20,254 nucleotides of DNA from a virus: positions 1 through 20,254 of IMG/VR virus record IMGVR_UViG_3300001373_000013; one strand, given 5' to 3'. The translations under genes and the position numbers were made by a program. Under the pieces are notes generated by a model that made no database searches, was not told the DNA's origin, and worked only from the letters and a program-made list of their open reading frames with translations. Positions 435 to 20,043 of this stretch are shown here, piece after piece (the stretch's first letter is position 1; every line of letters begins with the position of its first letter).

Positions 435-1904
435 ATGCCACAAATAGGGAAAAATGTAAGTTATGTAAGAACAGAATTGACAAATTTATGTAAAGAATAC
501 GATACAATTAGAGATTGTTTAAATGGTCAAGAGGTTATTAAATCCAAGAAAGATAAATATTTACCCAGACCTAATCCATTAGATATTTCAGAAGAAAATT
601 ATACAAGATACAAAGATTATTTAAATAGAGCTGTATTTTATGGAGTTACTAATAGAACTCTAGTGGGTTTATTAGGTCAAATATTTCATAAAAAAGCTAC
701 AGTAAAACTACCTCTATACCTTGAGGAGTTATCTAAAAATATAAATGGAGCTGGATTAAACCTAGAACAATTCTCCAAGAAAGTATGTGGTAATATTATT
801 TCATTTGGTAGGGGCGGAATACTAACTGATTTTACTAATTCAAATGAAAATGAAGTGCCTACGAAAGAATCCATAGATAATGGCAACATAAGGCCAGTTT
901 TGAAATTTTATGAATCATCTGATATTATTAATTGGAGAACTATTGACATAGGATCTAATTCAGTTTTATCTTTAGTTGTTTTGAAAGAAAAATATCCATA
1001 TTATGACGATGGATTTGAATTAAAAGAAGATGTGCAATATAGAGTATTAAGATTAGAAGAAGGTAAATATTATCAATACATCTATAGAGGCAATGTAAAA
1101 AATGCTAAAAGGATATCTCAACAATTTACAGAAATAAGTAAGATATTAATTCTAGATCATAATGGTAATCCATTTAATGAAATACAGTTTGAATTTATAG
1201 GATCATCTAATAATGATGTTGAGATAGATTACCCCCCATTGTATAATATTGCTGCATTAAATATTGCACATTATAGAAATAGCGCCGATTATGAAGAAAT
1301 GTGTTATATTTGTGGACAAATAACTCCATATTTTACCGGATTAACTCAAGAATGGGTGGCAGAAGTTTTACGTGATAAAGTTTATTATGGTAGCAGGACT
1401 ACAATACCTCTTCCCGTGGGAGCTACTGCTGGAATAATTCAAGCTTCATCCAATTCAGTTCCATTTGAGGCTATGGGTCATAAAGAAAAACAAATGGCAG
1501 CATTAGGTGCAAAATTAGTAGAACCTCGGAAGGTTCAACAAACCGCTACAGAAGATCAAAATGATAAATTAACAGAAAATAGTATGCTTGGAACTATTGC
1601 AAATAATGTATCATTAGCTATTGAAAATTCTTTAAAAAGAATGCTTTCATTTGTAAAAAGTGATGATAGTGATATTTTATATAAATTAAATACTGATTTT
1701 GAGATATTAACTATGTCAGAAGGCGAAAGAAGACAATTAACTTCAGAATGGAAAGATGGAATTATAACTTTTAACGAAGTAAGAACTTCGTTAAGAAACA
1801 TAGGAGTTGCGTTCGATGATGATAAAGAAGCTTTATTACTATTTGAAGAAAAAGATAGGCAAAAAAATGAAAAAGAAAATCAAAATCCCAGAAATAATGA
1901 TTGA
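435..1904 (+). CDS. Portal protein, DUF4055 family
   Basis: This 489-residue protein resembles the DUF4055 family, which occupies the portal position in many siphophages. A portal forms the twelve-subunit ring at one capsid vertex through which DNA enters and to which the tail attaches. Recognisable parts are the YKDYLNRAVFYGVTNRTLVGLLGQIF segment (about residues 59-84), INGAGLNLEQFSKKVCGNIISFGRGGIL (about 103-130), and ALNIAHYRNSADYEEMCYICG in the middle. The C-terminus is charged (EKDRQKNEKENQNPRNND). The start is set by AGGAGA at 425-430, 4 bases upstream. The gene lies between terminase and the scaffold/capsid pair, as expected. It contains one copy of the CCGTGGG motif, coding P-V-G. Confidence 0.85.
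   Translation: MPQIGKNVSYVRTELTNLCKEYDTIRDCLNGQEVIKSKKDKYLPRPNPLDISEENYTRYKDYLNRAVFYGVTNRTLVGLLGQIFHKKATVKLPLYLEELSKNINGAGLNLEQFSKKVCGNIISFGRGGILTDFTNSNENEVPTKESIDNGNIRPVLKFYESSDIINWRTIDIGSNSVLSLVVLKEKYPYYDDGFELKEDVQYRVLRLEEGKYYQYIYRGNVKNAKRISQQFTEISKILILDHNGNPFNEIQFEFIGSSNNDVEIDYPPLYNIAALNIAHYRNSADYEEMCYICGQITPYFTGLTQEWVAEVLRDKVYYGSRTTIPLPVGATAGIIQASSNSVPFEAMGHKEKQMAALGAKLVEPRKVQQTATEDQNDKLTENSMLGTIANNVSLAIENSLKRMLSFVKSDDSDILYKLNTDFEILTMSEGERRQLTSEWKDGIITFNEVRTSLRNIGVAFDDDKEALLLFEEKDRQKNEKENQNPRNND
1413..1420 (+). repeat. CCGTGGG motif, copy 1 (forward)
   Basis: Local sequence is TTCCCGTGGGAG inside the portal gene. It codes Pro-Val-Gly with codons CCC GTG GGA, although Val is otherwise mostly GTT or GTA in this window. 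Confidence 0.6.
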
Positions 1905-2106
1905 AGTATATACTGTATATAAAGTATCGTATGGGTATGAAGCTGTTTTGTTTTTAATTAATAGCGATAAACGTGTATATGAGTCCCCTGATACACTTAG
2001 ATTTTCGCAATTAGATAATGTAAGAAAATATTTTAATAATTTAAATATGACTAGAATCAATAGAGATGAAAAGGATGATATCTCAATTGTTGAGTTATGG
2101 GTGTGA
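1867..2106 (+). CDS. Small uncharacterised protein overlapping the portal end
   Basis: I do not recognise this 79-residue protein. It begins MKKKIKIPEIM, has a hydrophobic beta-like stretch (VYKVSYGYEAVLFLI) and ends acidic (RDEKDDISIVELWV). The frame stays open upstream to 1807, but the ATG at 1867 is chosen because AGG at 1857-1859 lies 7 bases before it. A second candidate start at 1897 has no ribosome site. From 1867 the gene overlaps the portal by 38 bases in another frame. It is the first of four small genes placed between portal and scaffold, a common position for accessory genes. A minor virion protein is equally possible. Confidence 0.6.
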   Translation: MKKKIKIPEIMIEVYTVYKVSYGYEAVLFLINSDKRVYESPDTLRFSQLDNVRKYFNNLNMTRINRDEKDDISIVELWV

Positions 2107-2107
2107 T

Positions 2108-2422
2108 ATGAAAAAAGTATTAGTTTGTGGATTAAAAAATTGCAATAAGGATGATTTTGAAGATATTGTTAAAAATTGCCCTTGGATGAGTAATGTAGAT
2201 AATTTAGGAATATATGGTATAGAATTAATACCTGATTACATGTTAAATTTTATATTTAACAATCATGTTCACATATATAGAGTTAAAAATAATTATAATT
2301 TTATAAATGATGATAGATTAGTGATTATATATAAAGATGGAGATAATGAAGTGTTGAATTTAATTGGATTGGCTAATAAATTAAAATTAAAAATGTATAT
2401 TCATTTGAAAAATGGAGGTTGA
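2108..2422 (+). CDS. Degenerate SLOG/DUF2493-like Rossmann protein (tentative)
   Basis: The product is 104 residues. It starts with a short beta strand, MKKVLVCGLKN, and ends DDRLVIIYKDGDNEVLNLIGLANKLKLKMYIHL. This reads like the final strand-helix-strand of DUF2493 proteins of the SLOG superfamily (pattern aD-lIai-dG-s-gT-nmi--Ak--glkvyv). SLOG proteins are Rossmann-like and bind or process nucleotides and their derivatives. The family's usual glycine-rich GG-x-GaD loop is not evident; IYGIELIPDY occupies that place, so catalytic activity may be lost. The ATG at 2108, one base after the previous stop, is preferred over an open frame from 2066. The family call comes from pattern reading only. 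The next gene starts two bases after this stop. Confidence 0.5.
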   Translation: MKKVLVCGLKNCNKDDFEDIVKNCPWMSNVDNLGIYGIELIPDYMLNFIFNNHVHIYRVKNNYNFINDDRLVIIYKDGDNEVLNLIGLANKLKLKMYIHLKNGG

Positions 2423-2423
2423 C

Positions 2424-2630
2424 ATGTCGTTAATTGTTATACTATTGATAATAAGTTGTTCGTTTTTAAGTTTTATTGTAGGATTAAATATTAGTGAAAA
2501 AAGATGGCGTGAAAATTCAAATTATGATAATCTTTTTATAAAAAGTAATAATTGTTTTTATAAAGTATTAAGCAAATATGAATATTGTTTGTATAGGTTA
2601 AATAGTAAACCCCCACGGAAAGGAAATTAA
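2424..2630 (+). CDS. Small single-span membrane protein
   Basis: This 68-residue protein opens with one strongly hydrophobic segment, SLIVILLIISCSFLSFIVGL (residues 2-21). A positively charged stretch (SEKRWREN) and a polar C-terminus rich in Tyr, Asn and Lys follow. This predicts an N-terminal membrane anchor or uncleaved signal, with the rest on one side of the membrane. A lipobox is not convincing around Cys12. The start at 2424 is fixed by GGAGG at 2414-2418, five bases upstream; the in-frame ATG at 2412 overlaps that site and is unlikely. It sits between the SLOG-like and RyR genes. I do not call it a holin, because there is one span and no lysis gene nearby. Confidence 0.65.
   Translation: MSLIVILLIISCSFLSFIVGLNISEKRWRENSNYDNLFIKSNNCFYKVLSKYEYCLYRLNSKPPRKGN
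2612..2618 (-). repeat. CCGTGGG motif, copy 2 (reverse)
   Basis: Read on + as CCCCCACGGAAAGG (2610-2623). It lies at the end of the membrane-protein gene, directly upstream of the AAAGGA ribosome site of the RyR gene. It is the only copy in a different codon phase (AAA CCC CCA CGG). Confidence 0.55.
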
Positions 2631-3029
2631 ATGGACGAAATAGGAGTAGCAAGAATTGTTATATTTATTTCAAAATTAGCTCATAATGCTATGGCTGATA
2701 ATTGTTTACAAAATTATAATATAAATGTCCCGTTATGGGATGATTTACCAGAAGATAATCGGATTGCAGCTTTTAATTTAACAGCTTATACATACGATCA
2801 TCCTGATATTACAGATAAAGAATTGCATGATGAGTGGGTCAAAACTAAATTAAATGATGGTTGGAAATATGGTATTAAATTAGATAATGATAAAAAAGAA
2901 AATCCTAATATTGTTGAATATGAGAATATTCCATTGCATTTTAGAATTAGTAGTAATATTTTTAGAAATGTTATATTATCAAGTAGTAAATTAATATCAT
3001 TCTTAGAAGATGAGGGTGTTATTTCTTGA
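2631..3029 (+). CDS. RyR-domain protein
   Basis: The 132-residue product matches the bacterial and phage RyR domain (the small repeat first named from ryanodine receptors) over about residues 13-115. Landmarks in order are PLWDDLPEDNR (34-44), a helix with HPDIT (57-61), LHDEWVKTKLNDGWKYG (65-81), the charged DNDKKENPN (85-93), and EYENIPLHFRISSNIFRNVI (96-115). In RyR domains the W-x-D-x-P, DGW-YG and KKEHP-like motifs are conserved. The molecular role of prokaryotic RyR domains is unsettled; a ligand-sensing role has been proposed from gene neighbourhoods. AAAGGA precedes the ATG, which directly follows the upstream stop. Its presence among structural genes suggests accessory cargo or a minor virion protein. 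Confidence 0.8.
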   Translation: MDEIGVARIVIFISKLAHNAMADNCLQNYNINVPLWDDLPEDNRIAAFNLTAYTYDHPDITDKELHDEWVKTKLNDGWKYGIKLDNDKKENPNIVEYENIPLHFRISSNIFRNVILSSSKLISFLEDEGVIS

Positions 3030-3034
3030 ATTAA

Positions 3035-3051
3035 TGTGTAAATTATACACA
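3035..3051 (+). promoter_or_regulatory. Short intergenic palindrome
   Basis: In the 43-base gap before the scaffold gene, TGTGTA (3035-3040) and TACACA (3046-3051) form perfect 6-bp arms around AATTA. It could be a small operator or weak hairpin. No T tract follows, so it is not a terminator, and I see no clear promoter around it. Confidence 0.3.
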
Positions 3052-3072
3052 TAAAACTGAAAGGATCTGAAA

Positions 3073-3771
3073 ATGAAAAGAAAGATAAGTAAAGAAGAAT
3101 TTGACAAACTAGATGATTTAAGAAAATCATTATATAAACTTAAGGGAGATATTTATGAACTTGAATTAGAAGATGATGATCATGAAGATACAGGTGCATT
3201 AAAAAGAGCTAAGTTTCATGAACAAGAAAGAAGAAAAGAAGCTGAAAAGTTGAATAAAGAAATGTTAGCCAAACTTGAGGAAATGGAATATGAAAGCACT
3301 AAAAGAAAAGGTGATATAAGTGCAGTTGAAAAATCATTGCATGATAAATATAGTAAAATGTTATCTGAATTAACAGAATCAAATAATAAATTAAAAAATG
3401 GAGTTAAGAAAAGTTTAATAGATAATTTGTCTAGTAAGATATCTAAAGAAATTTCTATAGTCCCAGATTTAATGGGCAAATATGTCAGAGATTATCTGGA
3501 CGTTGAATTTTCGGATGAAGGCCCGCAATTTATCGTTTTGGATGAGCGCGGCTTAAAGACTGGTCTAGCGGTGGATGATTTGAAGAAAAAATTGCTTGAC
3601 AATAAGGAATTAGCCTCAATACTGATAGGGACAAAAGCCAAAGGTGGCAGTGCCACCAATCTTAAAAATCCAAGTATCGGTGATACGAATCAAACATCTG
3701 TGCCATTAGCACAGATGAACCCCAGACAATTAGCCGAATTAATGAAGGCTAAAATTGAATCAAAGGAGTAA
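3073..3771 (+). CDS. Capsid scaffolding protein (putative)
   Basis: The 232-residue product is placed directly before the major capsid gene and has scaffold character. It has a long charged alpha-helical/coiled-coil region rich in Glu and Lys (about residues 1-115, with repeated EAEKL, KLEEME and LHDKYSK patterns). A compact middle segment (DYLDVEFSDEGPQFIVLDERG) follows, and then a flexible Gly/Ser/Asn-rich tail ending in MNPRQLAELMKAKIESKE, a short basic helix like those that bind capsid protein. A scaffold guides shell assembly and then leaves; a fused protease is not seen. AAAGGA at 3060-3065 sets the start. Base composition jumps inside the gene, from about 17% GC (3361-3420) to about 43% GC (3481-3660). 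Confidence 0.72.
   Translation: MKRKISKEEFDKLDDLRKSLYKLKGDIYELELEDDDHEDTGALKRAKFHEQERRKEAEKLNKEMLAKLEEMEYESTKRKGDISAVEKSLHDKYSKMLSELTESNNKLKNGVKKSLIDNLSSKISKEISIVPDLMGKYVRDYLDVEFSDEGPQFIVLDERGLKTGLAVDDLKKKLLDNKELASILIGTKAKGGSATNLKNPSIGDTNQTSVPLAQMNPRQLAELMKAKIESKE
3481..3660. other. GC-rich island inside the scaffold gene
   Basis: Hand counts give 24, 27 and 26 G/C per 60 bases (about 43%), against 10 of 60 just upstream. Codons rare elsewhere in the window (CGC, CCG, GCG, GGC) are clustered here, suggesting a segment of different origin. Confidence 0.6.
3643..3752 (+). promoter_or_regulatory. Cluster of four potential RNA hairpins before the capsid gene
   Basis: Four inverted repeats follow one another in the scaffold's 3' end. 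These are GGTGGCA-G-TGCCACC (3643-3657), GTATC-GGT-GATAC (3674-3686), CATCTGTGC-CATTA-GCACAGATG (3695-3717, a 9-bp perfect stem) and TTAGCC/GGCTAA (3730-3735 with 3747-3752). None has a T tract. They could affect mRNA processing or stability just upstream of the highly expressed capsid gene at 3777. Confidence 0.45.
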
Positions 3772-3776
3772 TTTTT

Positions 3777-4742
3777 ATGGCACTTAGCGACCTTGTAGTA
3801 TTCCAAGAATATTTGCAAACTACTGCCACAGAAGTTTTAGCTCAACAAGTTGAATTATTTGGTGCAGCTAGTGCAAATACTATAGTTTTAACTCCTAGTT
3901 CTCATATGGGGGATTATAACGAAAAAACATTTTTTACAAAAATATCAGGATTGGTTAGACGAAGAAATGCTTATGGTAGCGGGGCTGTAGCAGGTAAAAT
4001 TTTACAACAAGCTCTTGATACAATGGTTAAAGTAGCTGGTGGAACTCCACCAATTGAATTAGATGAGGGCATGTTTAAATGGATTCAAATGAATCCAGAA
4101 GCGGCGGGTGCAGCATTAGGCCAACAGTTAGCCAAAGATATGCTAGCGGATATGCTAAATACTGGTTTGCTTATTACGCAAGCAGCATTATCAGGTGTTA
4201 CTGAACTTATTTATGATGGCACTCAAGATACACCGGATACATTAACGTATCCAATGTTAGTAAAAGGTTCAGCTAAGTTTGGAGATAGATCAAATGATTT
4301 AGCATCCTGGGTAATTCATTCTACACCTATGCATGGGTTGTTTTTAGCTGGTGTTACAAATACAGAAAGACTATTTACTTATGGAACTGTTAACGTAGTA
4401 AGAGATCCTTTTGGTAGAATTTTTGTTATTACAGATAGTCCTTCATTAGTATTTGAAGATACAGCTAATATTTATTACACCTTGGGCTTGGTTCAAGGAG
4501 CTATTAGTGTAGATCAAAATAATGATTTTAGTGATAATATTGAAAAAACGAATGGTTTTGAAAATATTAAAAAGACTTATCAAGCTGAATGGACTTATAA
4601 CACTGGGGTAATGGGTTTTTCATGGAATAAAGGAACGGGTGGAGCAAGCCCAAATAATGCATCATTAGCTAGCCAACCCAACTGGACTAAGATAGTAACT
4701 AGTGTTAAAGATTGTGCTGGTGTAATGGTAGAAAGTAATTAA
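3777..4742 (+). CDS. Major capsid protein
   Basis: The 321-residue product has the size and position of an HK97-fold major capsid protein. It follows the scaffold by 5 bases, has the strong ribosome site AAAGGAG (3762-3768), and is closed by a strong terminator, as for the most abundant virion protein. The sequence reads like siphophage capsid proteins. It has a helical N-terminal part (DLVVFQEYLQTTATEVLAQQ), a central helix-rich region (AAGAALGQQLAKDMLADMLNTGLLITQAAL), then WVIHSTPMHGLFLAG and VVRDPFGRIFVITDSPSLV, typical of the A-domain. The C-terminus carries YQAEWTYNTGVMGFSWNKGTGGASP. No protease or delta-domain cleavage signal is evident. The coat assembles around the portal and scaffold. 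Confidence 0.85.
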   Translation: MALSDLVVFQEYLQTTATEVLAQQVELFGAASANTIVLTPSSHMGDYNEKTFFTKISGLVRRRNAYGSGAVAGKILQQALDTMVKVAGGTPPIELDEGMFKWIQMNPEAAGAALGQQLAKDMLADMLNTGLLITQAALSGVTELIYDGTQDTPDTLTYPMLVKGSAKFGDRSNDLASWVIHSTPMHGLFLAGVTNTERLFTYGTVNVVRDPFGRIFVITDSPSLVFEDTANIYYTLGLVQGAISVDQNNDFSDNIEKTNGFENIKKTYQAEWTYNTGVMGFSWNKGTGGASPNNASLASQPNWTKIVTSVKDCAGVMVESN

Positions 4743-4753
4743 CTTATTACTTG

Positions 4754-4790
4754 ATAAAGGAAGAGAATTAAATACTCTTCCTTTATTTTG
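4754..4790 (+). terminator. Rho-independent terminator after the capsid gene
   Basis: ATAAAGGAAGAG (4754-4765) and CTCTTCCTTTAT (4775-4786) form a perfect 12-bp stem with a 9-base loop, followed by TTTG. It begins 12 bases after the capsid stop. The U tract is short, so termination is probably partial. Confidence 0.8.
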
Positions 4791-5882: not shown

Positions 5883-5941
5883 TAGCGGTTAATAATAAAG
5901 GAGGTATGAAATGAGTTATGACGAATTATTATTAACCGCTA
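5883..5941 (+). promoter_or_regulatory. Perfect 16-bp inverted repeat enclosing an RBS and start codon
   Basis: TAGCGGTTAATAATAA (5883-5898) and TTATTATTAACCGCTA (5926-5941) are exact reverse complements. The 27-base loop holds the consensus Shine-Dalgarno AGGAGGT (5899-5905) and the start codon at 5911. As RNA the stem would leave the ribosome-binding site single-stranded in the loop. The right arm is also coding sequence of the 5911 gene (Leu-Leu-Leu-Thr-Ala). Confidence 0.7.
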
Positions 5942-6579
5942 ATATTTTTGATTTGGCTACCAAAAATGGTAAATTTGGAAATGGTGATAATTATAGTAAA
6001 TTTGAAACAGATGGCACATTAGTATCTAAAGGAACTGCTACAACATATGAAGATATTTTCTTAGCAATACATCCCAAAGAACTTGGAATTGGTCAACCAA
6101 CATTAAGAACTTTGGACGGAGATATTAGAAAATACACAATGGCAGTTAATGACATATACGATATAGATTGCCCTGAATTATTACATTGTTGGGAAGAAGG
6201 TAGCGGTTTTGAAGTTCATATACATTGGGCAACAAGAGGTTTAAATGATGCTACAGCAAGAGGGGTTAAATTCAAAATAGAAGGATTATGGTCAAATATT
6301 AAGGGAAAAGGATCTCCAGAAAGTTTTGTTGCAATGACTGGTTCGCCATTTTCATCGGAAAAACAAATACCAGCTAATGAACCGGATTTAACATATTATA
6401 ACCATTCTATTTTTTCTTATACTCCCGTGGGTGGTAAGATAGGTGCATGTTTATTATTATCATTAAAAAGAATAGCTTCTGTGAATAATATTGCACCTGC
6501 TAATGATCCTTGGATTTTAATGGTAGGAATACATATTAAAAAAGATACTAGTGGCAGTAGAACCACAACTAATAAGTGA
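5911..6579 (+). CDS. Putative virion structural (fibre/surface) protein
   Basis: The 222-residue product resembles a class of phage structural proteins recognised by the segment CPELLHCWEEGSGFEVHIHWATRG (about residues 87-110). There the L-H-x-W...H-I-H-W strand pair is characteristic, and it is preceded by a region of the type NGDNYSKFETDGTLVSKGTATTYEDI. The remainder is beta-rich, consistent with a beta-sandwich that decorates the head, neck or tail. Residues 189-208 (IASVNNIAPANDPWILMVGI) look like the buried last strands. The start has the strongest ribosome site in this part of the window and sits inside the loop of the 5883-5941 inverted repeat. One CCGTGGG copy lies inside. The exact virion location is unknown. 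Confidence 0.65.
   Translation: MSYDELLLTANIFDLATKNGKFGNGDNYSKFETDGTLVSKGTATTYEDIFLAIHPKELGIGQPTLRTLDGDIRKYTMAVNDIYDIDCPELLHCWEEGSGFEVHIHWATRGLNDATARGVKFKIEGLWSNIKGKGSPESFVAMTGSPFSSEKQIPANEPDLTYYNHSIFSYTPVGGKIGACLLLSLKRIASVNNIAPANDPWILMVGIHIKKDTSGSRTTTNK
6424..6431 (+). repeat. CCGTGGG motif, copy 3 (forward)
   Basis: Local sequence is ACTCCCGTGGGTGG, coding Thr-Pro-Val-Gly-Gly with CCC GTG GGT in the 5911 gene. Confidence 0.6.
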
Positions 6580-6585
6580 GATATC

Positions 6586-7122
6586 ATGAGTCAATTACCA
6601 GCTTCTCAAGCTATTATAAGATTAAAAGAGAATGAGGAAAGATTTGATTTTTTTCTTAATACTAATGCAGGTTATAATACAAATGAATTAGTTCCTAGAG
6701 AAGTTAAAGGAATACCTTACATAATGATGGATATTTTAAGTAGAATAGGCCCAAAAACTGTTTCTCATACAACTTCAAGTTTAGCTCAAAATGAAATCGA
6801 AGAATTTCAAATCGTAATGGCTAAGGTGAGTAGTTTAACAAAAATTACAACTGATAGAAAAGCTTGGATTAGAGTTTATGGCACAGAAGCGGATTTAATA
6901 GCCGATAGAACTAGATTAATAACAGAATCACCAGATCCTATTGATCATGTTATTTGGGATGTTTCTACATATGATAATTTGACAGTTAGATCATGCCCTA
7001 TACCTATTTTTGCAAATGGTGATTCGCCTGTTGTAGATATAGCTTATGTGTCTGTTAAAAATATAGATGCTAGTGCTGGAACTATAACTTGTGATATGGA
7101 TTATATTGGAGGTTCAATCTAA
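6586..7122 (+). CDS. Fibre-associated protein with KENEER N-terminal motif
   Basis: The 178-residue product has two regions. Residues 1-55 (SQAIIRLKENEERFDFFLNTNAGYNTNELVPREVKGIPYIMMDILSRI) match the N-terminal segment seen in many phage tail fibres (AI-RLK-NEER---F-N ... T-DGR-V-TLP). It recurs in the gene starting at 20055. Residues about 67-178 read like a common small structural domain: LTKITTDRKAWIRVYGTEADLIADRTRLITESP, then HVIWDVSTYDNLTVRSCPIPIFANGDSP and a final VSVKNIDASAGTITCDMDYIGG. It probably attaches to, or is part of, a fibre or neck appendage. The spacing (6 bases after the previous stop, GTGAG upstream) and the 1-base overlap with the next gene indicate one operon. Confidence 0.68.
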   Translation: MSQLPASQAIIRLKENEERFDFFLNTNAGYNTNELVPREVKGIPYIMMDILSRIGPKTVSHTTSSLAQNEIEEFQIVMAKVSSLTKITTDRKAWIRVYGTEADLIADRTRLITESPDPIDHVIWDVSTYDNLTVRSCPIPIFANGDSPVVDIAYVSVKNIDASAGTITCDMDYIGGSI

Positions 7123-8142: not shown

Positions 8143-8637
8143 ATGACTTTGATAATAGAAGATGGAACGAATGTTGCTAATGCTAATAGTTATATATCTT
8201 GTGTAAATGCTAGAGCATATGCTATAAGTAGAGGTATAACTCTACCTGCCACCGATCCTGAATTAGAAATACTTTTAATAAAATCAATGGATTATTTGGA
8301 ATCATTAAGAGAGAAATACCAAGGAGTTAAAACATATTCAACACAATGTTTACAATGGCCTAGATATGGAGTTTATATTGATGGGAATGCAGCTTCAAGT
8401 ATTTTAATACCTAATTTATTAATAAAAGCTCAAGCCCAGCTATCAATGGAAGTTTTTGCAGGAATTGATTTACAACCTACTTCCGTGGGTTATGGTATAA
8501 AAAAAGAAAAAGTAGATGCAATTGAAACAGAATATTTTAATAGTGTCGGGAGTCCAGTTCCTAATTTAAGATTAGTTAATTCATTATTGAATCCTTTGTT
8601 TAGATATTATAGAATATTGTCTAATGTGAGAGTATAA
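8143..8637 (+). CDS. Head-tail connector with DnaT-like domain
   Basis: The 164-residue product has the pattern of the phage 'DnaT-like ssDNA-binding domain' family, which in virion modules is the adaptor ring below the portal. Its N-terminus, MTLIIEDGTNVANANSYISCVNARAYAISRGITLPA, matches the family opening (EDGT-v--ANSY-sv-dA-aY---RG). Further on are LEILLIKSMDYLESLREKYQGVKT and the signature CLQWPRYGVYIDG (residues 69-81). The C-terminal helices and tail (FRYYRILSN) are also typical. Despite the family name, this context argues against a replication role: portal and capsid are upstream, head closure and tail tube downstream. AAGGTGA precedes the start. One CCGTGGG copy lies inside. Confidence 0.78.
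   Translation: MTLIIEDGTNVANANSYISCVNARAYAISRGITLPATDPELEILLIKSMDYLESLREKYQGVKTYSTQCLQWPRYGVYIDGNAASSILIPNLLIKAQAQLSMEVFAGIDLQPTSVGYGIKKEKVDAIETEYFNSVGSPVPNLRLVNSLLNPLFRYYRILSNVRV
8481..8489 (+). repeat. CCGTGGG motif, copy 4 (forward)
   Basis: Local sequence is ACTTCCGTGGGTTA, coding Thr-Ser-Val-Gly-Tyr with TCC GTG GGT in the connector gene. Confidence 0.6.
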
Positions 8638-11824: not shown

Positions 11825-12298
11825 ATGGCAACATTAATTCAAATGGCTAGTAATTTAAGAAGTTTAAAAACTTCTTTAAAAAAATCATCTAATGAAATAA
11901 GTAAAGAATTTTCTAAAAGACTATTGACTCATTTAGTTATGCAAACTCCCGTAGATACTTCAAGAGCATTATCTAATTGGATAATAAACTTAAATAGACA
12001 ACAAATCCCCACGGGTAGCATTGAAAATTATAACGGTATTCCCGCTTATTATCCCGGAAATGATGGTTCCACCGAGCAGATAAGTGAGGATATGGCTATA
12101 ATGGTTGGTGAAACAATGATAAATTTAAAAAAACCCGGTAAAGATATTTTTATAGTTAATAATATATCTTATATGGATTACTTAAATGAAGGTAATAGTA
12201 AGCAACAGAATGCTTTTTGGATTAATTTCAGCATAATGAGACAATATGAAAATATGAAGTTTTATATAGATGTTATAAATAAAGTAAAGTGGAGGTAA
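11825..12298 (+). CDS. Tail completion protein, HK97 gp10-like
   Basis: The 157-residue product shows the hallmarks of the gp10/tail-completion family. It has an N-terminal amphipathic helix, then THLVMQTPVDTSRALSNWIINLN (residues about 36-58; the family motif is TPVDTG-A--NW). Later come KDIFIVNNISYMDYLNEGNSKQQNAFWINFSI (about 107-138; the family motif is I-N--PY---LN-G-S-Q-----W). Such proteins finish the tail or neck joint. The gene here lies between the chaperones and the tape measure, unlike HK97, where it sits with the connectors, but other siphophages show the same arrangement. It begins two bases after the chaperone stop, with AAGGA upstream. One reverse CCGTGGG copy lies inside. Confidence 0.75.
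   Translation: MATLIQMASNLRSLKTSLKKSSNEISKEFSKRLLTHLVMQTPVDTSRALSNWIINLNRQQIPTGSIENYNGIPAYYPGNDGSTEQISEDMAIMVGETMINLKKPGKDIFIVNNISYMDYLNEGNSKQQNAFWINFSIMRQYENMKFYIDVINKVKWR
12007..12015 (-). repeat. CCGTGGG motif, copy 5 (reverse)
   Basis: Read on + as ATCCCCACGGGTAG, coding Ile-Pro-Thr-Gly with CCC ACG GGT in the tail completion gene. Confidence 0.6.
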
Positions 12299-12299: not shown

Positions 12300-15200
12300 A
12301 TGGAGCAAGTTGTTAGTATAAAGATAACTGATAACGTAGCAACTACAATTGGCCCTAAACTAGAAGATATTGCAAAATTTGCAATACAAGCTTCGCAGAA
12401 ATTAAATACTTTGAAAATAGTATTAAAAGGCTTCTCTTCCGTGGGGTTAAAAGAAGTTTTTGCAGATTTAAAAGGAATTAATGAAGTTTTAAAATCAAAT
12501 AATACACTATCCAAACTAACAAATAAAAGTACATCTGATAGTAATTTGGAAAATAATAGAATTAAACAAGCTATCGCATATGAAGAACAATTAAAAAGAG
12601 GAATTGCCAACGAAACAAAAGAAAATAATAGATTGCAAGCATTAAAAGAAAGAAATATAGCTAAATTACAAGCATTAAAAGATAAACAACAAGCTAAAGA
12701 AGCTCTTAATTCTGAAAAATTAGCAAATAGAATAATTAATAATGATAATAGTATGATACTATCTAAACAAAAATTATTTGATAAAGAAGAGGCTTTGAGA
12801 ATTAAGCAAGCCATTGCGTATGAAAAACAATGGAGAAAAGAAGTAGCAAATGAGAATAAAAGAAGAGAAAATTTTAGATTGCAAACCGTATCAGGTAAAC
12901 CTTCGGGTGGATTCGATTTAACAGACGTTGCTTATACTATAGGTAAAATGTGGTTATTAAAATCAGCCGTGGAAGCTATAATAAGACCAATTATTAATTT
13001 AACAGATTCTTATACACAATTACAAAATAAATTAAGACTTGTTAGCGATAATAATATTCAATTATTAGCATTGACTAACCAAATGTTTGATATATCTACA
13101 AGAGCGAGAGTTCCGGTTCAAGATTTAGCTACAGCTTTTCAAAGATTCGATTTAGCATTAAAACCTTTAGGTGCATCTCAAGTTGAAGTTTTGGCAATGG
13201 TTGAGACTGTATCAAAAGCTATGACATTAAGCGGCGTTTCAACAATGGAGCAAACGCAAGGTTTAAGACAATTATCCCAAGCTTTTAATAAAGGAAAATT
13301 AGATGGCGATGAGTTTAGAACTGTTATGGAAACAATGCCTTTATTAGCACAAGCTATTGCTGATAAGTTAAAAGTGGCTAAGGGTGAATTATTAGATTTA
13401 GCTCCAAAAGGAAAAATTACTTCTCAAGTAATGAGAGAAGCTTTGAAAGACGTTGCTATACAAGTTGAAGCGCAATTTTCAAAATCTATTCCAACAATAG
13501 AACAAGGATTAACAGTTGTAAGAAATAGTTTTTCAAAATTAGCTGGTGAAATAGAAACAAGCACTGGTTTATTTGCGTCTTTAGCTACTAAAATGGTTAA
13601 TTTTTCAAAAGAAGCTAATGTATCTGCACCTAAAATTATAACATTATCAAATAGTATTTTAGAATTATTATCAAATATTAAAGGTTTACTCGTAGAATTA
13701 TCACCAACTACTTATGCTTTAAAAAAGTTTGGTAATGATTCTATTAGTGTTATTGATTTAATTAGTAAATCGTTAATAGGTTTTAGTTTTACATTTTCTG
13801 CGGTAAGAGATATGATAAAAAATGCAATTGATTTATTTACAGTAGGTGCTAAAGATTTCAAAATATCAACAACTAATGTTGATGCATTAGTTAATAAATA
13901 TACAGAATTAGAAAATACTCAAAAAACAAGAGAAGCTACACTTAGATCTATATTGGCTTTAGATAACGAAATTAAAAAAGTAGCTAATGAATATGCCGCT
14001 TTACCAAATAAAAATACAGAACAAGCTGAAAGATTAAAAATGGATTATCAAGCTTTAAAAAATCAAAAAGCTACTCTTGATGGGACATCTAGTTTAAGAG
14101 CTATGCAAGAAATAGAAATTAATAATAAAAAGAAATTAACAGCCGAAGAAAAGAAACTTGCTAGTCAATTGGAAAGAAAATCTGATATATTGAAAAAAAT
14201 TAATTTTGAATTAAACCTAGAAAGAAAATATTTATTTATGGATGATCGGGAAGTTTCTATAAATAAAAGATTTGATAGAATGATTGAACAGTATAATAAT
14301 GCCAAACCAAAAAATAAAAAAATGAGTAAAGATGCAGTAATTTCTTTAAAAGCTGAACTTGAAATGATATATGATGAACAAAAATTATCAAAATTATATA
14401 ATGATATTAAACATAAAATTAAAGACAATATTGATGAGATTACGGCTTCTGAAAAAATTGTAATAGACTTGGCAAAATCAGGAGATCAGCCTATTTTATT
14501 AGGAGAAGCTGTTAGATTTTTAAGAGAATTAACAGATAGTTATTTATCTTTAACAGAACCATTGTATGAATTTAATAAACAAATGGACCTAGAAGTAAAA
14601 TTATTAAAAGAAGTAGGTGTTTATTCTGAAAATAGACAAAAACAATTAGAACTTGAATACGAACTTGAAAGAAAGGGTTTTGAGATAACTAAAGAAATGA
14701 CTAATAAAATTGAAAAAAGATTATTTGATAATAAATTATTAGCAGATTCACAAAACATTGTTAATGAATCCTTGGAAGAATATATAAAAGGAGTTGAGAA
14801 AATACTTGCTTTAAAAAATTTACAAAATAATCCTATTGTTAATGGCGAACAAAGAATGACTCTTCCAATGATGGCTAAAAATATTTCAAATTTATTAGGA
14901 AATTCTTATGATAGTGGTGAAGGTAAAGCTTATTCTGACATTGGAGATATGCAAACTAAAATTAAACTAACTGAGGATATGATTAAAAACTTAGGATTTT
15001 CTATTGATGAATATAATAGTTTTAAAAATAAATTAACATCGGATACGCTTAAATCAACAATGCCTGATTTATTCCCAGATGAGTATTTTAATGAAAGTAA
15101 AAATAAATGGAAAAAATATTATGATTATATCAAAACAATGAGAGAAAATAACATTATAGATGCTAAGACAGAAGCCGATGTCACATTTTTTATTGAAAAA

Positions 15201-15803
15201 AAGAAAATGGAAGCAAAATTACAATTTACTCAAAATACGTTTAGCAATATGGCAAGTTTAATGCAATCGGGATCAAGAGATATTTTCGAAATAGGACGTG
15301 CTTTTGCAATAGCCGAAGCGACAATACAAGGCTATACCGCCGTAATGAATGCATGGTCAGAAGGCCAAAAATATGGTGCAATTGCTGCCGGGCTTGCGGC
15401 TACAGCGGCTGGGATTCATGCCGCAATGTTGATAGGCAAGATCGCCACTTCGGCCCCTCCTTCCTATGAATCCGGCGGATTAATTCAAGGGGGGAAACAG
15501 ACCATCCAAGTTAATGAACGCGGTCGAGAGTTTATAATGAATGCCAACGCCACAAGTAGATATAGACCAATGCTAGAATCGATGAATAGTGGTAGGTCAT
15601 CAGGTGTTAATGTGAAAATAGAAAATTACGGAACTAGTAAAGAATTTGAAGTTAAGCAATTAAGTGAATATGAAATTAGAATAATAGCTACAGATGAAAT
15701 TAATAAAAAAACTCCAGATGTAGTAGCTAGTCAGTTTAGAAATCCAAATTCGAGAGTTTCAAAAGCTATTAATCAAACACTAGTAACACAAAGAAGGTTA
15801 TAG
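12300..15803 (+). CDS. Tape measure protein
   Basis: The 1167-residue product is the longest in the window and determines tail length. At roughly 0.15 nm per residue a tail near 175 nm would be expected. Residues 1-230 are a charged helical region with a duplicated segment. Residues about 233-430 match the tape-measure N-terminal domain (TDSYTQLQNKLRLVSDNN, ISTRARVPVQDLATAFQRF, TQGLRQLSQAFNKGKLDGDEFRTVMETMPLLAQAI). Two hydrophobic stretches follow (about 485-525). The middle 520-980 is coiled-coil. Residues about 1000-1060 (RAFAIAEATIQGYTAVMNAW, then GAIAAGLAATAAGIHAAMLIG, SYESGGLIQGG, ERGREFIMNANATSRY) are the conserved C-terminus. GGAGG lies directly before the ATG. The C-terminal conserved part is encoded by a GC-rich island. 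Confidence 0.9.
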   Translation: MEQVVSIKITDNVATTIGPKLEDIAKFAIQASQKLNTLKIVLKGFSSVGLKEVFADLKGINEVLKSNNTLSKLTNKSTSDSNLENNRIKQAIAYEEQLKRGIANETKENNRLQALKERNIAKLQALKDKQQAKEALNSEKLANRIINNDNSMILSKQKLFDKEEALRIKQAIAYEKQWRKEVANENKRRENFRLQTVSGKPSGGFDLTDVAYTIGKMWLLKSAVEAIIRPIINLTDSYTQLQNKLRLVSDNNIQLLALTNQMFDISTRARVPVQDLATAFQRFDLALKPLGASQVEVLAMVETVSKAMTLSGVSTMEQTQGLRQLSQAFNKGKLDGDEFRTVMETMPLLAQAIADKLKVAKGELLDLAPKGKITSQVMREALKDVAIQVEAQFSKSIPTIEQGLTVVRNSFSKLAGEIETSTGLFASLATKMVNFSKEANVSAPKIITLSNSILELLSNIKGLLVELSPTTYALKKFGNDSISVIDLISKSLIGFSFTFSAVRDMIKNAIDLFTVGAKDFKISTTNVDALVNKYTELENTQKTREATLRSILALDNEIKKVANEYAALPNKNTEQAERLKMDYQALKNQKATLDGTSSLRAMQEIEINNKKKLTAEEKKLASQLERKSDILKKINFELNLERKYLFMDDREVSINKRFDRMIEQYNNAKPKNKKMSKDAVISLKAELEMIYDEQKLSKLYNDIKHKIKDNIDEITASEKIVIDLAKSGDQPILLGEAVRFLRELTDSYLSLTEPLYEFNKQMDLEVKLLKEVGVYSENRQKQLELEYELERKGFEITKEMTNKIEKRLFDNKLLADSQNIVNESLEEYIKGVEKILALKNLQNNPIVNGEQRMTLPMMAKNISNLLGNSYDSGEGKAYSDIGDMQTKIKLTEDMIKNLGFSIDEYNSFKNKLTSDTLKSTMPDLFPDEYFNESKNKWKKYYDYIKTMRENNIIDAKTEADVTFFIEKKKMEAKLQFTQNTFSNMASLMQSGSRDIFEIGRAFAIAEATIQGYTAVMNAWSEGQKYGAIAAGLAATAAGIHAAMLIGKIATSAPPSYESGGLIQGGKQTIQVNERGREFIMNANATSRYRPMLESMNSGRSSGVNVKIENYGTSKEFEVKQLSEYEIRIIATDEINKKTPDVVASQFRNPNSRVSKAINQTLVTQRRL
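12437..12446 (+). repeat. CCGTGGG motif, copy 6 (forward)
   Basis: Local sequence is TCTTCCGTGGGGTTA, coding Ser-Ser-Val-Gly-Leu with TCC GTG GGG near the start of the tape-measure gene. Confidence 0.6.
12558..12639 (+). repeat. Imperfect direct repeat in tape measure, copy A
   Basis: Codes RIKQAIAYEEQLKRGIANET and a following KENNRLQ (from about residue 87). It recurs 240 bases, or 80 codons, downstream in the same frame. Confidence 0.6.
12798..12885 (+). repeat. Imperfect direct repeat in tape measure, copy B
   Basis: Codes RIKQAIAYEKQWRKEVANEN and a following KRRENFRLQ (from about residue 167). The first eight residues are identical to copy A although the DNA differs at several third positions, so the duplication is old. 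Confidence 0.6.
15301..15540. other. GC-rich island in the 3' part of the tape-measure gene
   Basis: Hand counts for four successive 60-base blocks are 28, 33, 34 and 25 G/C (about 50%), against 13 of 60 at 15181-15240 and 17 of 60 at 15601-15660. CGC, GGC, GCC and GCG codons cluster here. It encodes the conserved hydrophobic C-terminal segment. Confidence 0.65.
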
Positions 15804-15811
15804 GTGATAAT

Positions 15812-16303
15812 ATGGCTTTAGATAAATTAATGATACCCCCAGATAAGAATGGTTATTCTTTTGCTGATGGCACCGAAACAATATCAATTAAATTAGATGG
15901 TGGTTTAAGTAGATATAGAAAAGATGTTTTAAAATCTTCATTTGTCGTTAATGTTCAATGGACTATTGGCGAAAAAGACTATAGATATTTGAGATCATTT
16001 TATAGGGGTATAACTGAATCTGGAAGTAAGGCTTTTTTAATGGATATATTGGTTGATAGAGGTTGCGAGTTAACAGAACATGAATGTTTTTTTATTCCTG
16101 GTTCTTTTACAACTAACAATGTATCAGGTGAAACATTTACGGTATCTGCACAAATAGAATGTAAATTAGTAGGATTGGCCGATACTGATCAAGAGTATGT
16201 TTATTGGTATAATGCTTTTGGTGGTTATACTATTTACTATGAAGATTTATTCAATACGATAATTAATACATTTCTACCTAACGATATACCTTACCCGGTG
16301 TAA
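15812..16303 (+). CDS. Distal tail / minor tail protein (putative)
   Basis: The 163-residue product follows the tape measure by 8 bases, the place of a distal tail or minor tail protein. Its sequence has beta-rich tail-protein character: SIKLDGGLSRYRKDVLKSSFVVNVQWTIGEKDYRYLRSFYRGITESGSKAFLMDILVD, with the pattern L-x-G-G-x-S-R-Y-R-x-D ... V-x-W-x-x-x-x-x-x-x-Y-x-x-x-x-x-F-(Y/F). A C-terminal ring-fold strand GSFTTNNVSGETFTVSAQIECKL follows. Similar small proteins lie just before DUF1833 genes in other siphophages. AGGTGAT overlaps the tape-measure stop and serves as ribosome site. The exact family is not certain. Confidence 0.62.
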   Translation: MALDKLMIPPDKNGYSFADGTETISIKLDGGLSRYRKDVLKSSFVVNVQWTIGEKDYRYLRSFYRGITESGSKAFLMDILVDRGCELTEHECFFIPGSFTTNNVSGETFTVSAQIECKLVGLADTDQEYVYWYNAFGGYTIYYEDLFNTIINTFLPNDIPYPV

Positions 16304-16304
16304 T

Positions 16305-16799
16305 ATGGCAGATAAATACACAGAATTTTTTTTGAATAGTAATATAAATATCATAGCATATGAGTGCATAGAAATTTCGCACCCTAGTTTTACAAAAATT
16401 TATAGATTGGTTAGAAATAATACACTTGGTTTAACAGTTGGTGTAAATACATACGAATATTGCCCTATGAAAATTACACCAATATCACAAAGGGATGATT
16501 TAGATCAATTTATAAAAATAGAATTAGGGGACTTAGGAGAAATTATACCAATAGAAATTGATAATATTTTTCAAGAAAATGGTTTTGCAACATTACCCAC
16601 GGTGATATACAATGTTTTTAAAAGTGATAACTTAGTATTAACTGACCCTTTATTCGGTCCAATTTTATTAGAAATAAAAACTTTTACTTTTAATAAAAAT
16701 GGTTGCATGTTTGAAGCAAAAGCTCCTAGTTTAAATGTCCAGAGAGTAGGTGAATATTATAGATTAGATAGATTCCCAGCTTTGAAAGGATTTTTATGA
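16305..16799 (+). CDS. DUF1833 tail protein
   Basis: The 164-residue product matches the DUF1833 family. It opens YTEFFLNSNINIIAYECIEISHPSFTKIYRLVRNNTLGLTV (about residues 5-45); the family pattern is an N-terminal helix followed by Y-E-x-x-E-I-x-H-P-x-F-x-x-x-Y-x-x-V-R-N. It continues with SQRDDLDQFIKIELGDLGEIIPIEID and ends VQRVGEYYRLDRFPALKGFL, also typical of the family, whose members sit between a minor tail gene and an NlpC/P60 gene. It is thought to link the distal tail to the hub, much like lambda L. One base separates its start from the previous stop, and its end overlaps the next start as ATGA. A reverse CCGTGGG copy lies inside. Confidence 0.8.
   Translation: MADKYTEFFLNSNINIIAYECIEISHPSFTKIYRLVRNNTLGLTVGVNTYEYCPMKITPISQRDDLDQFIKIELGDLGEIIPIEIDNIFQENGFATLPTVIYNVFKSDNLVLTDPLFGPILLEIKTFTFNKNGCMFEAKAPSLNVQRVGEYYRLDRFPALKGFL
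16596..16602 (-). repeat. CCGTGGG motif, copy 7 (reverse)
   Basis: Read on + as TTACCCACGGTGAT, coding Leu-Pro-Thr-Val with CCC ACG GTG in the DUF1833 gene. Confidence 0.6.
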
Positions 16800-17140
16800 A
16801 TATAAATAAATTCCTTAATAAAAAATACAATGAAAATACTTATAATTGTTTACACTTTGCATCTGAAGTTTGGGAATATTTAACTGGCGACAATACTTTA
16901 ATTAATATTATTCCCGTGGGTGAAAAGTTTGTATTGACAAAAGATATTATTAATAGAGTTCATTATTTAGAAAAACCTAATAGTCCTTGCCTAGTGTATT
17001 TTAAAAATAATTATTCATCGCATATAGGTGTTTATTTTGATAACAAAATTATACATATTAATAAAAATGGTGTTAAATACGAATTACTTGAATCTGCTAT
17101 TATAGGATTTAAGAAAGTGAGGTTTATGATATGTTTTTAA
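16796..17140 (+). CDS. NlpC/P60-like tail peptidase
   Basis: The 114-residue product is a compact NlpC/P60-type cysteine peptidase, as usually encoded between the DUF1833 and hub genes. Candidate catalytic residues are Cys18 in YNCLHFASEVW, His76 in SSHIGVYFDN, and His87 in IIHINKNG. The spacing (Cys, then about 58 residues, then His followed by G-(V/I)-Y) fits the family. In phage tails such enzymes cut the stem peptide of peptidoglycan during DNA entry or process the tail tip. It lacks a partner Mov34/JAB domain, unlike lambda K, which is common for this gene order. AAAGGA precedes the ATG, which overlaps the previous stop. A CCGTGGG copy codes Ile-Pro-Val-Gly. Confidence 0.75.
   Translation: MNINKFLNKKYNENTYNCLHFASEVWEYLTGDNTLINIIPVGEKFVLTKDIINRVHYLEKPNSPCLVYFKNNYSSHIGVYFDNKIIHINKNGVKYELLESAIIGFKKVRFMICF
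16913..16920 (+). repeat. CCGTGGG motif, copy 8 (forward)
   Basis: Local sequence is ATTCCCGTGGGTGA, coding Ile-Pro-Val-Gly-Glu with CCC GTG GGT in the NlpC/P60 gene. Confidence 0.6.
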
Positions 17141-20043
17141 TAATTATTGAAGATATTACAAATAAAGAAAATTTTGAAAATATAGAAATTGAAGATTTAT
17201 GCGATTATTTAATTGAAAGATATAAAATAATGCCAAAAGGAGCTAGGATCTATAAAGATTCAATATCTGTAGATAATGATATTACACCCACTTGTGAAGC
17301 GGATATTGATAGGTTGAAATGCCTACCTTTTGATTCTACAATTTATTTTATAATATTACCGCAAGGTTTTGAAACATGGGTTTATGCAATATTGTTAATT
17401 GTTACTTTAGCCGCAACCTTCTTATTGAGACCTAAGTTTCCATCTAATTTAGATAATAAATCTTTAGAGTCCCCTAATAATTCTTTAACTGGAATTTCAA
17501 ACTTAAATAGATTGAATGGTAGAATACCTGATATTTTTGGAAGTATAGGGAAAGCAGTTCCTGATTTAATTGGAATACCGTTTACATTTTTTATGAATAA
17601 TATTGAATATGAAATGAGTCACTTGTGTTTAGGTAGGGGTTTTTATGAATTTAAAACTATACTAAATAATGGTAAAATTTTATATGAAATAAGAGATGGT
17701 GATACTTTAATTGAAGAAATGACTTACCCATTTTTAGCAGTATGGGATCCTGGATATTGTGTTTGGAATGATTGGGAATTGTTGCACACTTCTGTTAAAA
17801 TAGGCACACTTAGTTATCCTTTTATATTCTTAGCCGCGATGACAATGTATAAATCAAAATCTGGTGAAAATATTATATTGCAACCACCTAATTTTAAAAC
17901 AGATTCAACAATGACTATAGATAATACTGGATTATTCACACAAATAAGTGGCGGAATAGATTTTACAACTAAGATGAGTATTAATGATAATGTAAATATT
18001 AACGCAGAATATAATGCATTATTTGAAGGAACTGCAACAGTAAGACAAGTTTATAATAGTTATTTTTATGTAACAAAATCAAGTGTATTAGGAATACCGG
18101 ATTGGCCCTTTATAGAAAGTCATTATCCATTTAGATGTAAAGTTTATTACGATAATGGCTACCCAGGAACCCCGTATTATGTTTATTTGGGAATTTTTGA
18201 CATAAGTGAATATGCTGGATATGTTCTTTTTAATGGAATTGCTATAACAAATGAATTACAAGGTTTAACTTGGATTCAAAATCATACTTTTAGAATTGAA
18301 AAACTATTAACAATTGAAGGAATATGTGAAGTTAGTAATGTTTCTACTAATACAATTAATTTTTTAAATCCTGAAAATCTATCTAATTGGGATTATATAG
18401 ATTTTAAAACATCAATAACTAATGTAGCAATTAATTTTTATAATCAAACAGGATCTTCCGTGGGTCCATTTTTTGTAGATAAAATAATAAGTGAAGTATA
18501 TGTAAATTTTGAAGCTACAGGTGGATTATTTAAAAAAACAACTACTACCTTCACTCCCACGGATATAGAAATAAGATTACTAATAGAACCAGTTGATTCA
18601 GAAGGTGTTTTAAATGGTGATAATGTTTCTGATACAACTTTTACAGTGCATGGAAGTGGTGAAAATAATGTTTTTGTAGGTGTATCTACTAGAATAAGAT
18701 TACAAGATGGTCCTAGTAGAGTTAGAATTTCTATTTTTAGATTAACTGATCATGATAATAGTTTTACAGAAACATATCTTGATGAAATAAAAGTTAAAAG
18801 TATTTACTATGGAATTGAAGAAATACCTAGTTTACATTGTTTTGATAATGTTACTACAATGGTATATATTAAAAAATCAGATGCTAATTCCGTAGTATCT
18901 TCTGATAACAAATTAAACTGCTCTGTAACTAGAAAAATACCTTTAAGAATAAGCGGTTCAACTTTTACGGCTGAAAATGGAAGTGGTTGTGAAAATGGAT
19001 TAGGTTTATTTGCTTCTAATAGTGTGGATGATATTTTATCGGCTATTATGTTAGATCCAAAAATAGGTAATAGATCATTATCTGAAATAGACTTCGATTC
19101 TATTTATGATACTGTTTCAGAAATTAATACATATTTTGGAACTATAGAAACTAATTTAAAAAAAGTAACAGAGTTTGCATATACTTTTGATAAAATTATA
19201 ACATTTGAAGAAACAGTTGGACCTATAGCCGAATGTGTTTATAGTTTGTTATATAGAAGGGGTAATTTAATTAAAATGAAATTTGAAAAATTAGAATTAA
19301 ACGGGACTATTTTATTTAATCATAGAAATAAAATTCCAAATTCAGAAGTAAGAACATTATCTTTTGGCAATGTTGAAAATAATGATAGTATTGAATTTGA
19401 ATATATTAATCCTGATACAAATTTGCCAGAAATAGTGTATATCCCAAATACTCTAGGTAATAATCCTAAAAAAATAGAATCAATAGGTGTTAGAAATAAA
19501 CTACAAGCTTATTTTCATGCGTGTAGATATTATAATAAATTATTACATCAGCATGTTACTACAGAGTTTGAATCTACATCAGAAGGCAATTTATTGTTAT
19601 TAAAAGATAAAATTTTAGTAACAGATTCAAGTAGACCTAATATACAGGATGGTGAAGTTACAGGACAAATTGGTTTAGAAATAGAATTAAGTCAAAATGT
19701 CTTACTTGGGACTAACCCTATTATATTTTTACAATACTATGATGGAATAGTAGAATCTATGCAATGTTCAATTGGAACTTTACCAAATAGAGTTTTATTG
19801 GCATCCGCTCCTAGACTTAGTTTAGTAACAGATATAAATAAATTCGCTAGAACTACTTATATTTTGGTTAATGAAGATGATTTATCAATAAGAGAATTTA
19901 TGGTAGAAGAAAGGAATATTCAAAATAATATGACATGTTTAATAAAAGCTATTAATTATAGCGATAGGTATTATTATAATGATAAAGATTATATTGATGA
20001 CAAAGTAGATATAAATGGTAATATTTTAGGAATCCCAACGTAA
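17131..20043 (+). CDS. J-like tail tip / central hub protein
   Basis: The 970-residue product is a J-type host-specificity hub. Residues 1-80 form a small alpha/beta domain similar in layout to lambda I. Residues 83-99 (WVYAILLIVTLAATFLL) are a hydrophobic helix. Residues 114-147 carry the signature SPNNSLTGISNLNRLNGRIPDIFGSIGKAVPDLI, typical of J proteins (S-PN-Q-tG---N--R-YG-IPdifG ... -PdLi). The C-terminal half has long beta-rich regions and ends with baseplate-hub-like strands (TYILVNEDDLSIREFMVEERNIQNNMTCLIKAINYSDRYY). Residues about 410-570 are Thr/Asn-rich and may be an inserted surface or sugar-binding domain. The start overlaps the previous gene by 10 bases, with GAGG upstream. Two CCGTGGG copies lie inside. 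Confidence 0.85.
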   Translation: MFLIIIEDITNKENFENIEIEDLCDYLIERYKIMPKGARIYKDSISVDNDITPTCEADIDRLKCLPFDSTIYFIILPQGFETWVYAILLIVTLAATFLLRPKFPSNLDNKSLESPNNSLTGISNLNRLNGRIPDIFGSIGKAVPDLIGIPFTFFMNNIEYEMSHLCLGRGFYEFKTILNNGKILYEIRDGDTLIEEMTYPFLAVWDPGYCVWNDWELLHTSVKIGTLSYPFIFLAAMTMYKSKSGENIILQPPNFKTDSTMTIDNTGLFTQISGGIDFTTKMSINDNVNINAEYNALFEGTATVRQVYNSYFYVTKSSVLGIPDWPFIESHYPFRCKVYYDNGYPGTPYYVYLGIFDISEYAGYVLFNGIAITNELQGLTWIQNHTFRIEKLLTIEGICEVSNVSTNTINFLNPENLSNWDYIDFKTSITNVAINFYNQTGSSVGPFFVDKIISEVYVNFEATGGLFKKTTTTFTPTDIEIRLLIEPVDSEGVLNGDNVSDTTFTVHGSGENNVFVGVSTRIRLQDGPSRVRISIFRLTDHDNSFTETYLDEIKVKSIYYGIEEIPSLHCFDNVTTMVYIKKSDANSVVSSDNKLNCSVTRKIPLRISGSTFTAENGSGCENGLGLFASNSVDDILSAIMLDPKIGNRSLSEIDFDSIYDTVSEINTYFGTIETNLKKVTEFAYTFDKIITFEETVGPIAECVYSLLYRRGNLIKMKFEKLELNGTILFNHRNKIPNSEVRTLSFGNVENNDSIEFEYINPDTNLPEIVYIPNTLGNNPKKIESIGVRNKLQAYFHACRYYNKLLHQHVTTEFESTSEGNLLLLKDKILVTDSSRPNIQDGEVTGQIGLEIELSQNVLLGTNPIIFLQYYDGIVESMQCSIGTLPNRVLLASAPRLSLVTDINKFARTTYILVNEDDLSIREFMVEERNIQNNMTCLIKAINYSDRYYYNDKDYIDDKVDINGNILGIPT
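18456..18464 (+). repeat. CCGTGGG motif, copy 9 (forward)
   Basis: Local sequence is TCTTCCGTGGGTCC, coding Ser-Ser-Val-Gly-Pro with TCC GTG GGT in the hub gene. Copy 10 lies 98 bases downstream in opposite orientation. Confidence 0.6.
18556..18562 (-). repeat. CCGTGGG motif, copy 10 (reverse)
   Basis: Read on + as ACTCCCACGGATAT, coding Thr-Pro-Thr-Asp with CCC ACG GAT in the hub gene. Confidence 0.6.

Follow-up and report, generated by a model that had tools for sequence, protein, structure and literature searches.

A dispersed GTG-core site in a phage fragment and its probable role as a primase start site

The heptamer CCGTGGG occurs ten times in a stretch of viral DNA of 20,254 bases (the window), and we propose that these copies are template-recognition sites at which the phage's own primase starts Okazaki fragments, a reading that we regard as probable. 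It draws on the kinship of the window with phages that carry a similar site, on the core that the sites share and on their matching density; by the same analogy the window phage would have a primase of the AEP/PrimPol type, the site would prime in the cell, and the primer would begin on the bases named below. For the phage group as a whole we lean, with less assurance, towards the broader view that the genome hard-codes its Okazaki-fragment map, as an even series of primase starts on each strand from which strays have mostly been purged, with sites that shift between genes and a spelling that drifts with the primase. A literature search among open-licence papers found no published report of such an array or of a strand-wise priming map.

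CCGTGGG sites in the window

The window spans a whole virus record and represents a structural fragment with portal, head, tail tube, tape measure and tail genes, which ends inside a tail gene. Six copies of CCGTGGG lie on its plus strand and four on its minus strand, which makes this an over-represented short site with a GTG core on both strands at a density of about one per 2 kb. The expected count is 0.28 by dinucleotide shuffles, with a maximum of two among 100 shuffles, and 0.20 under an order-3 Markov model (Poisson p of about 2e-14), in agreement with the first-pass annotation, made from the letters of the window, which had put it well below one. CCGTGGG is the most extreme over-represented 7-mer of the window. 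It is also sharply bounded, as the ten exact copies are accompanied by only two one-mismatch neighbours where about seven are expected. All ten copies reported by the first-pass annotation were found again in their places and orientations; they are listed here with the head protein gene that served as marker for placing the phage:

1414-1420, plus strand, CCGTGGG in the portal gene, coding P-V-G
2612-2618, minus strand, CCGTGGG in a small ORF (2412-2630), coding P-P-R on the coding strand
3777-4742, plus strand, major head protein gene
6425-6431, plus strand, CCGTGGG in a structural-region ORF (5911-6579), coding P-V-G
8483-8489, plus strand, CCGTGGG in the head-tail adaptor gene, coding S-V-G
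12008-12014, minus strand, CCGTGGG in the tail completion/neck gene, coding P-T-G
12439-12445, plus strand, CCGTGGG in the tape measure gene, coding S-V-G
16596-16602, minus strand, CCGTGGG in a minor tail gene, coding P-T-V
16914-16920, plus strand, CCGTGGG in an ORF (16796-17140), coding P-V-G
18458-18464, plus strand, CCGTGGG in the large tail protein gene, coding S-V-G
18556-18562, minus strand, CCGTGGG in the large tail protein gene, coding P-T-D

The copies had been described as coding different peptides, which holds for those on the minus strand (PPR, PTG, PTV and PTD), whereas the six plus copies share one frame (P/S-V-G); six of the eight (P/S)-V-G tripeptides in the window are spelt CC-GTG-GG. 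The codons GTG and ACG are indeed otherwise avoided, with 34 of 369 valine codons and 25 of 454 threonine codons, respectively. The extended form, given earlier as T(T/C)CCGTGGG(T/G/A), is Y-CCGTGGG-(T/G/A), with one copy preceded by A. Gaps between plus-strand sites have a coefficient of variation (CV) of 0.40 (p 0.06), and the minus strand with its four sites gives p 0.42; at these small numbers even spacing is suggestive on the plus strand only.

The head protein of the window is 57-58% identical to those of Paracoccus phage R3 (58%) and Septimatrevirus phages, and 62% identical to those of the nearest viral contigs among those searched. There is no primase gene within the 20-kb window, which covers the structural part only; its closest capsid relatives on long contigs encode the primase and carry the TGTGGGCA system described below. 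As a side observation, the truncated last ORF (20055-20254) starts, by eye, much like the ORF at 6586-7122 (DQAIVRFKENEERAN... vs. SQAIIRLKENEERFD...), which suggests that a structural or fibre-type gene is present twice.

Related phages carry a dispersed site with the same core

The octamer TGTGGGCA is enriched in most relatives of the window phage, and CCGTGGG in none of them. Septimatrevirus-like phages hold 15-26 copies of TGTGGGCA per genome where fewer than 1.1 are expected. Observed and expected counts over whole genomes are 18 and 0.24 in Ab26, 26 and 0.65 in R3, 18 and 0.26 in KL1, and 15 and 0.19 in PaMx42, and the corresponding values are 24 and 1.1 in Acinetobacter phage W9, 17 and 0.3 in RcTitan, and 16 and 0.7 in FtMidnight. 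The first-pass annotation had proposed a count against a Markov expectation in related phages, and by that measure the relatives lie far above expectation. Similar enrichment is seen in phages of Acinetobacter, Achromobacter, Sphingomonas, Rhodobacter and E. coli. The spelling varies: the main form in Klebsiella phage Kmi2C is TGTGGGC(T/A), other relatives use TGTRGGCA, TGTGGYYA, TGTGGTCA together with TGTGGCTA, or TGTGGCCA, and in some related phages TGTGGTTA, TGTGGTCA or TGTGGCCA replaces TGTGGGCA. The core common to all spellings is GTGG, mostly GTGGG. In every relative GTG usually follows a T, in the window a C, and the spelling of the window stands apart even from that of AT-rich relatives with an unchanged TGTGGGCA (contig L293, 33% GC).

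CCGTGGG in the window is not a private oddity and probably represents a drifted spelling of this type of dispersed site. We consider it unlikely that it represents an element distinct from the TGTGGGCA system, with a GTGGG core common to both by chance. Such an element would fit the different upstream bases, the presence of GTGGG outside the site at near-expected frequency in the window (see below) and the lack of an intermediate phage, as no second contig enriched in CCGTGGG was found among several hundred loci, and searches with the head protein, the portal, the tail protein and the primase yielded no close CCGTGGG relative. The two sites nevertheless agree in core, in density on both strands and in the kind of genome position that they occupy, and it is the nearest capsid relatives of the window that carry the TGTGGGCA system.

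Several further words are strongly enriched in related contigs (TAGACGGT, TAGACGTC, GCGTTAG, CGGGGTCG, GGCTCTGG and TTAAATTTA, in L161/L315, L267, L271, L275, L353, L157/L327 and G014); some may be further primase-site variants and some ordinary repeats.

The site follows the replication module

The dispersed site goes with the phage replication module, and not with the capsid or the host. Seven phages whose capsid is homologous but whose replication module differs were without a dispersed site of the TGTGG[G] type, which excludes a capsid-linked role; two of the seven show unrelated enriched words (GGTGTGG in STP9 and TGCCGTTG in Kagunavirus). Salmonella phage SE13, a contractile-tailed Rosemountvirus that has the module, contains 26 copies of TTGTGGGT against 1.4 expected; its primase, too far diverged to be picked up by tblastn, was assigned from an alignment. 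Of 63 primase loci of at least 10 kb, 52 contain an octamer of the TGT[AG]G type at p<1e-4. The 29 prophage-type capsid loci and the 141 reversed-word controls yielded no such case. The other 11 of the 63 primase loci are without a clear TGT-type octamer, and in the locus G015 the best octamer, TGGGCAGC, is without GTG.

A prediction could be made from this association. Six phages with other capsids were chosen solely by primase homology, and all six proved to have a TGTGG-type site: CAjan (TGTGGTTA, 41 vs. 2.4 expected), VspDsh_1 (TGTGGTCA, 43 vs. 2.65 expected), MiCath (TGTGGTCA, 27 copies), R7M (TGTGGTTA, 25 copies), Vibrio phage 1.117 (TGTGGTCA, 18 copies) and Rhizobium phage Y2_17_2, with the shorter word CTGTGG(T/A). 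By word count NrS-2, which was scored neither as a primase carrier nor as a non-carrier, has no such octamer. A gene-presence table identifies the primase, an SF2 helicase and a single-stranded DNA-binding protein (SSB) as constant partners of the site, while the DNA polymerases of motif-bearing phages are of two unrelated types. The module is inherited largely as a block, and presence alone cannot separate the primase from the SF2 helicase and SSB.

The primase and its known specificity

Judged by sequence and by a structural model, the primase of the module is predicted to be an AEP/PrimPol primase with a PrimPol fold and a helix-bundle domain (HBD). Ab26 gp35, annotated as "DNA primase", matches the Pfam NrS-1 HBD domain at 1.5e-8, and a profile of eleven primases (A1) searched against the PDB finds NrS-1 PrimPol (6a9w, E 9e-43; 7ola, 4e-50) over residues of about 6-256, so that the primases of the related phages are homologous to a characterised PrimPol-HBD protein across both domains. 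The catalytic residues Asp-89 and Asp-91 (DxD) and Ser-117, Ser-119, Gly-122 and His-124 (SxSGxGxH) are invariant in all eleven sequences and align with FIDLD and SPSGDGLH of NrS-1. An AlphaFold model of the N-terminal part of the PaMx42 primase (mean pLDDT 89) has NrS-1 N300 as its best six PDB matches (top E 1e-17), followed by the pRN1 primase. The TM-scores are modest at 0.4-0.5, perhaps due to a differing placement of the two domains.

Two enzymes of this family read a short GTG-containing template. NrS-1 PrimPol, a primase-helicase homologous to those of the related phages, recognises TTTGGTTA and, more efficiently, GTGG, its best minimal site (PMC8718748); TTTGGTTA has the same octamer form as the TGTGGTTA of CAjan and is one base away from it. 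The NrS-1 genome contains only two TTTGGTTA sites, near its centre (PMC7102993), compared to 15-43 spaced copies in the phages studied here, and the NrS-1 enzyme doubles as the replicative polymerase, whereas the phages here have a separate DNA polymerase. The primase of pRN1 (ORF904), likewise an AEP primase with an HBD, requires a template GTG and begins its primer across from the two bases immediately 5' of it (PMC8076596). Its site comprises three bases in a small archaeal plasmid, for which no evenly spaced genomic array has been described. By analogy with the NrS-1 and pRN1 enzymes, we propose that the primases of the relatives may initiate in a sequence-specific manner at the dispersed sites.

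Spacing on each strand

In eleven whole genomes the gaps between sites on the same strand, of about 2-6 kb, have a CV of 0.27-0.63, compared to about 0.9 for random placement. Most of the strand-wise tests give p <0.01, but these are not independent because the eleven genomes are related. On the plus strand of VspDsh_1 the CV is 0.24, with every gap between 1.3 and 3.0 kb. A low CV is absent on the MiCath plus strand and in G014. Where two spellings coexist, pooling them yields a more regular series than either spelling alone, as seen for TGTAGGCA and TGTGGGCA in G003 and likewise for the two spellings of R7M. Sites on opposite strands show no exclusion and come as close as 40 bases. The late-gene strand carries 191 sites and the other strand 105 across the eleven genomes.

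The gaps are close in size to the Okazaki fragments of T7, which average about 3 kb and range from about 1 to 6 kb (PMC12839067). T7 gp4 is similar in being a phage primase with template-encoded Okazaki starts, at sites 5'-(G/T)2GTC-3', but it belongs to the DnaG/TOPRIM type family, its sites are many and only partly used, and a sharp array of 7-8-base sites with even per-strand spacing has not been reported for it.

Turnover of positions and coding freedom

Of the alignable sites of Ab26, 16 of 25 are kept in PaMx42, 13 of 22 in KL1 and 5 of 20 in FtMidnight, and none in R3, Lucius (0 of 11) or phiAxp-1 (0 of 9), yet the copy number stays at 22-28 despite this turnover. Only 4 of 260 sites fall outside long ORFs; the rest lie within genes in either orientation, which disposes of promoters and terminators. 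Sites in the relatives use all six reading registers and shift between homologous genes, which argues for selection on the DNA rather than the protein, as the first-pass annotation had supposed; the finding that it had named as contrary evidence, conservation of residues rather than bases in homologues, is contradicted in the relatives. Selection at the protein level was rejected on the same grounds, although Val-Gly is a convenient place for fitting the site.

Ten of the eleven whole genomes have fewer GTGGG outside the site than expected, while the window shows no avoidance (6 vs. 7.8 expected). Avoidance of GTG or GTGGG, strong in Septimatrevirus-like phages, does not occur in the window or Kmi2C and is in part confounded with a separate loss of CTC/GAG; it was discarded as a universal mark of the system.

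Proposed role and alternatives

How could a primase make use of such sites? During replication the HBD of the phage AEP/PrimPol primase-helicase would bind the GTGG(G) core on the exposed, single-stranded template, and the PrimPol domain would then begin the primer against the base or bases that directly precede GTG on its 5' side, which are T in most relatives and C-C in the window. Each site would correspond to the start of one Okazaki fragment. Such a role would explain sites on both strands, a spacing of 2-6 kb per strand and the loss of extra GTGGG in most relatives. Among the roles offered by the first-pass annotation, a site for a phage DNA-binding protein came nearest, although the likely reader, a primase on single-stranded template, had not been proposed.

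The main mechanistic rival is a Chi-like role for the phage helicase, in which the motif would halt or switch the SF2 helicase and a Cas4/RecB-like exonuclease, and the strand would then be taken over by Sak4 and SSB in recombination. The genes for all four adjoin the motif-bearing replication module, and Chi sites are likewise short, asymmetric and read on one strand, in keeping with the strand-wise placement. However, the nuclease is not present in all carriers: Cas4 was not detected with three queries in phiAxp-1 despite its 26 TGTGGGC sites, nor was Sak4 detected by tblastn in Lucius. A Chi-like role gives no clear reason for even spacing or for a minimum gap on the same strand, and GTG/GTGG specificity is experimentally known for the primase of the family and not for its nuclease. 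We rate this explanation as improbable.

Sites for a protein that binds duplex DNA, such as a repressor, a stoperator-like silencer, or a nucleoid or packaging protein, are very improbable. In being dispersed and in changing sequence from phage to phage, the copies resemble the stoperator sites of cluster A mycobacteriophages. Regularity within a strand without exclusion between strands would be odd for a reader of the duplex, nearly all sites are in genes in either orientation, and a small helix-turn-helix protein is found next to the primase in only a few carriers.

A signal set by the host, be it a methylation target, an uptake sequence, a host Chi or a DnaA box, is scarcely credible, since one and the same octamer recurs in phages whose hosts span nine unrelated genera (Pseudomonas, Burkholderia, Paracoccus, Rhodobacter, Sphingomonas, Klebsiella, Acinetobacter and Achromobacter, as well as E. 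coli) and the word varies between phages and tracks their replication module, even though uptake sequences do occur in prophages of naturally competent hosts and TGTGGTTAA is one base away from the DnaA box. Among the earlier suggestions, methylation by the host, uptake and a Chi site of the host lose favour on this basis. Chi sites and DNA uptake sequences are similar in that they are short, dispersed words over-represented in genes on both strands, but their readers are host-encoded. In Pasteurellaceae-type prophages (L020-L048 and L066) the uptake words AAGTGCGG or ACAAGCGG were in excess, a positive control for the k-mer method.

Returning to the priming sites, what would they be useful for? 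The starts of lagging-strand fragments in phages are usually known only statistically. If the octamers are priming sites, these starts could be read from the sequence in many phages, including CAjan of E. coli K-12; the co-evolution of spacing, strand bias and primase specificity would become testable, and primase specificity could be predicted from sequence. Priming would also make sense of the puzzling excess of such a word in several phage genera.

Depletion of GTG and CTC/GAG

Outside the motif, GTG occurs at 0.20-0.45 of the expected frequency in Ab26, KL1, PaMx42, Kmi2C, Lucius and RcTitan (L074 and relatives). This genome-wide depletion could reflect the avoidance of stray primase sites or form part of a CTC/CTA depletion. 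CTC/GAG is almost absent from six phages (L074, L075, L076, L077, L084 and L087), with observed/expected ratios of 0.01-0.03, and is partly depleted in L078, L079, L081 and L088 as well; the ratio is below 0.1 in 49 of 217 loci. The loss is separate from the priming motif because CTC/GAG is near normal in the window and SE13. An enzyme that cuts or modifies DNA at a three-base target may underlie this scarcity. In Ab26 the 28 copies of CTC/GAG in 43 kb lie mostly within GGAGT Shine-Dalgarno-like sequences.
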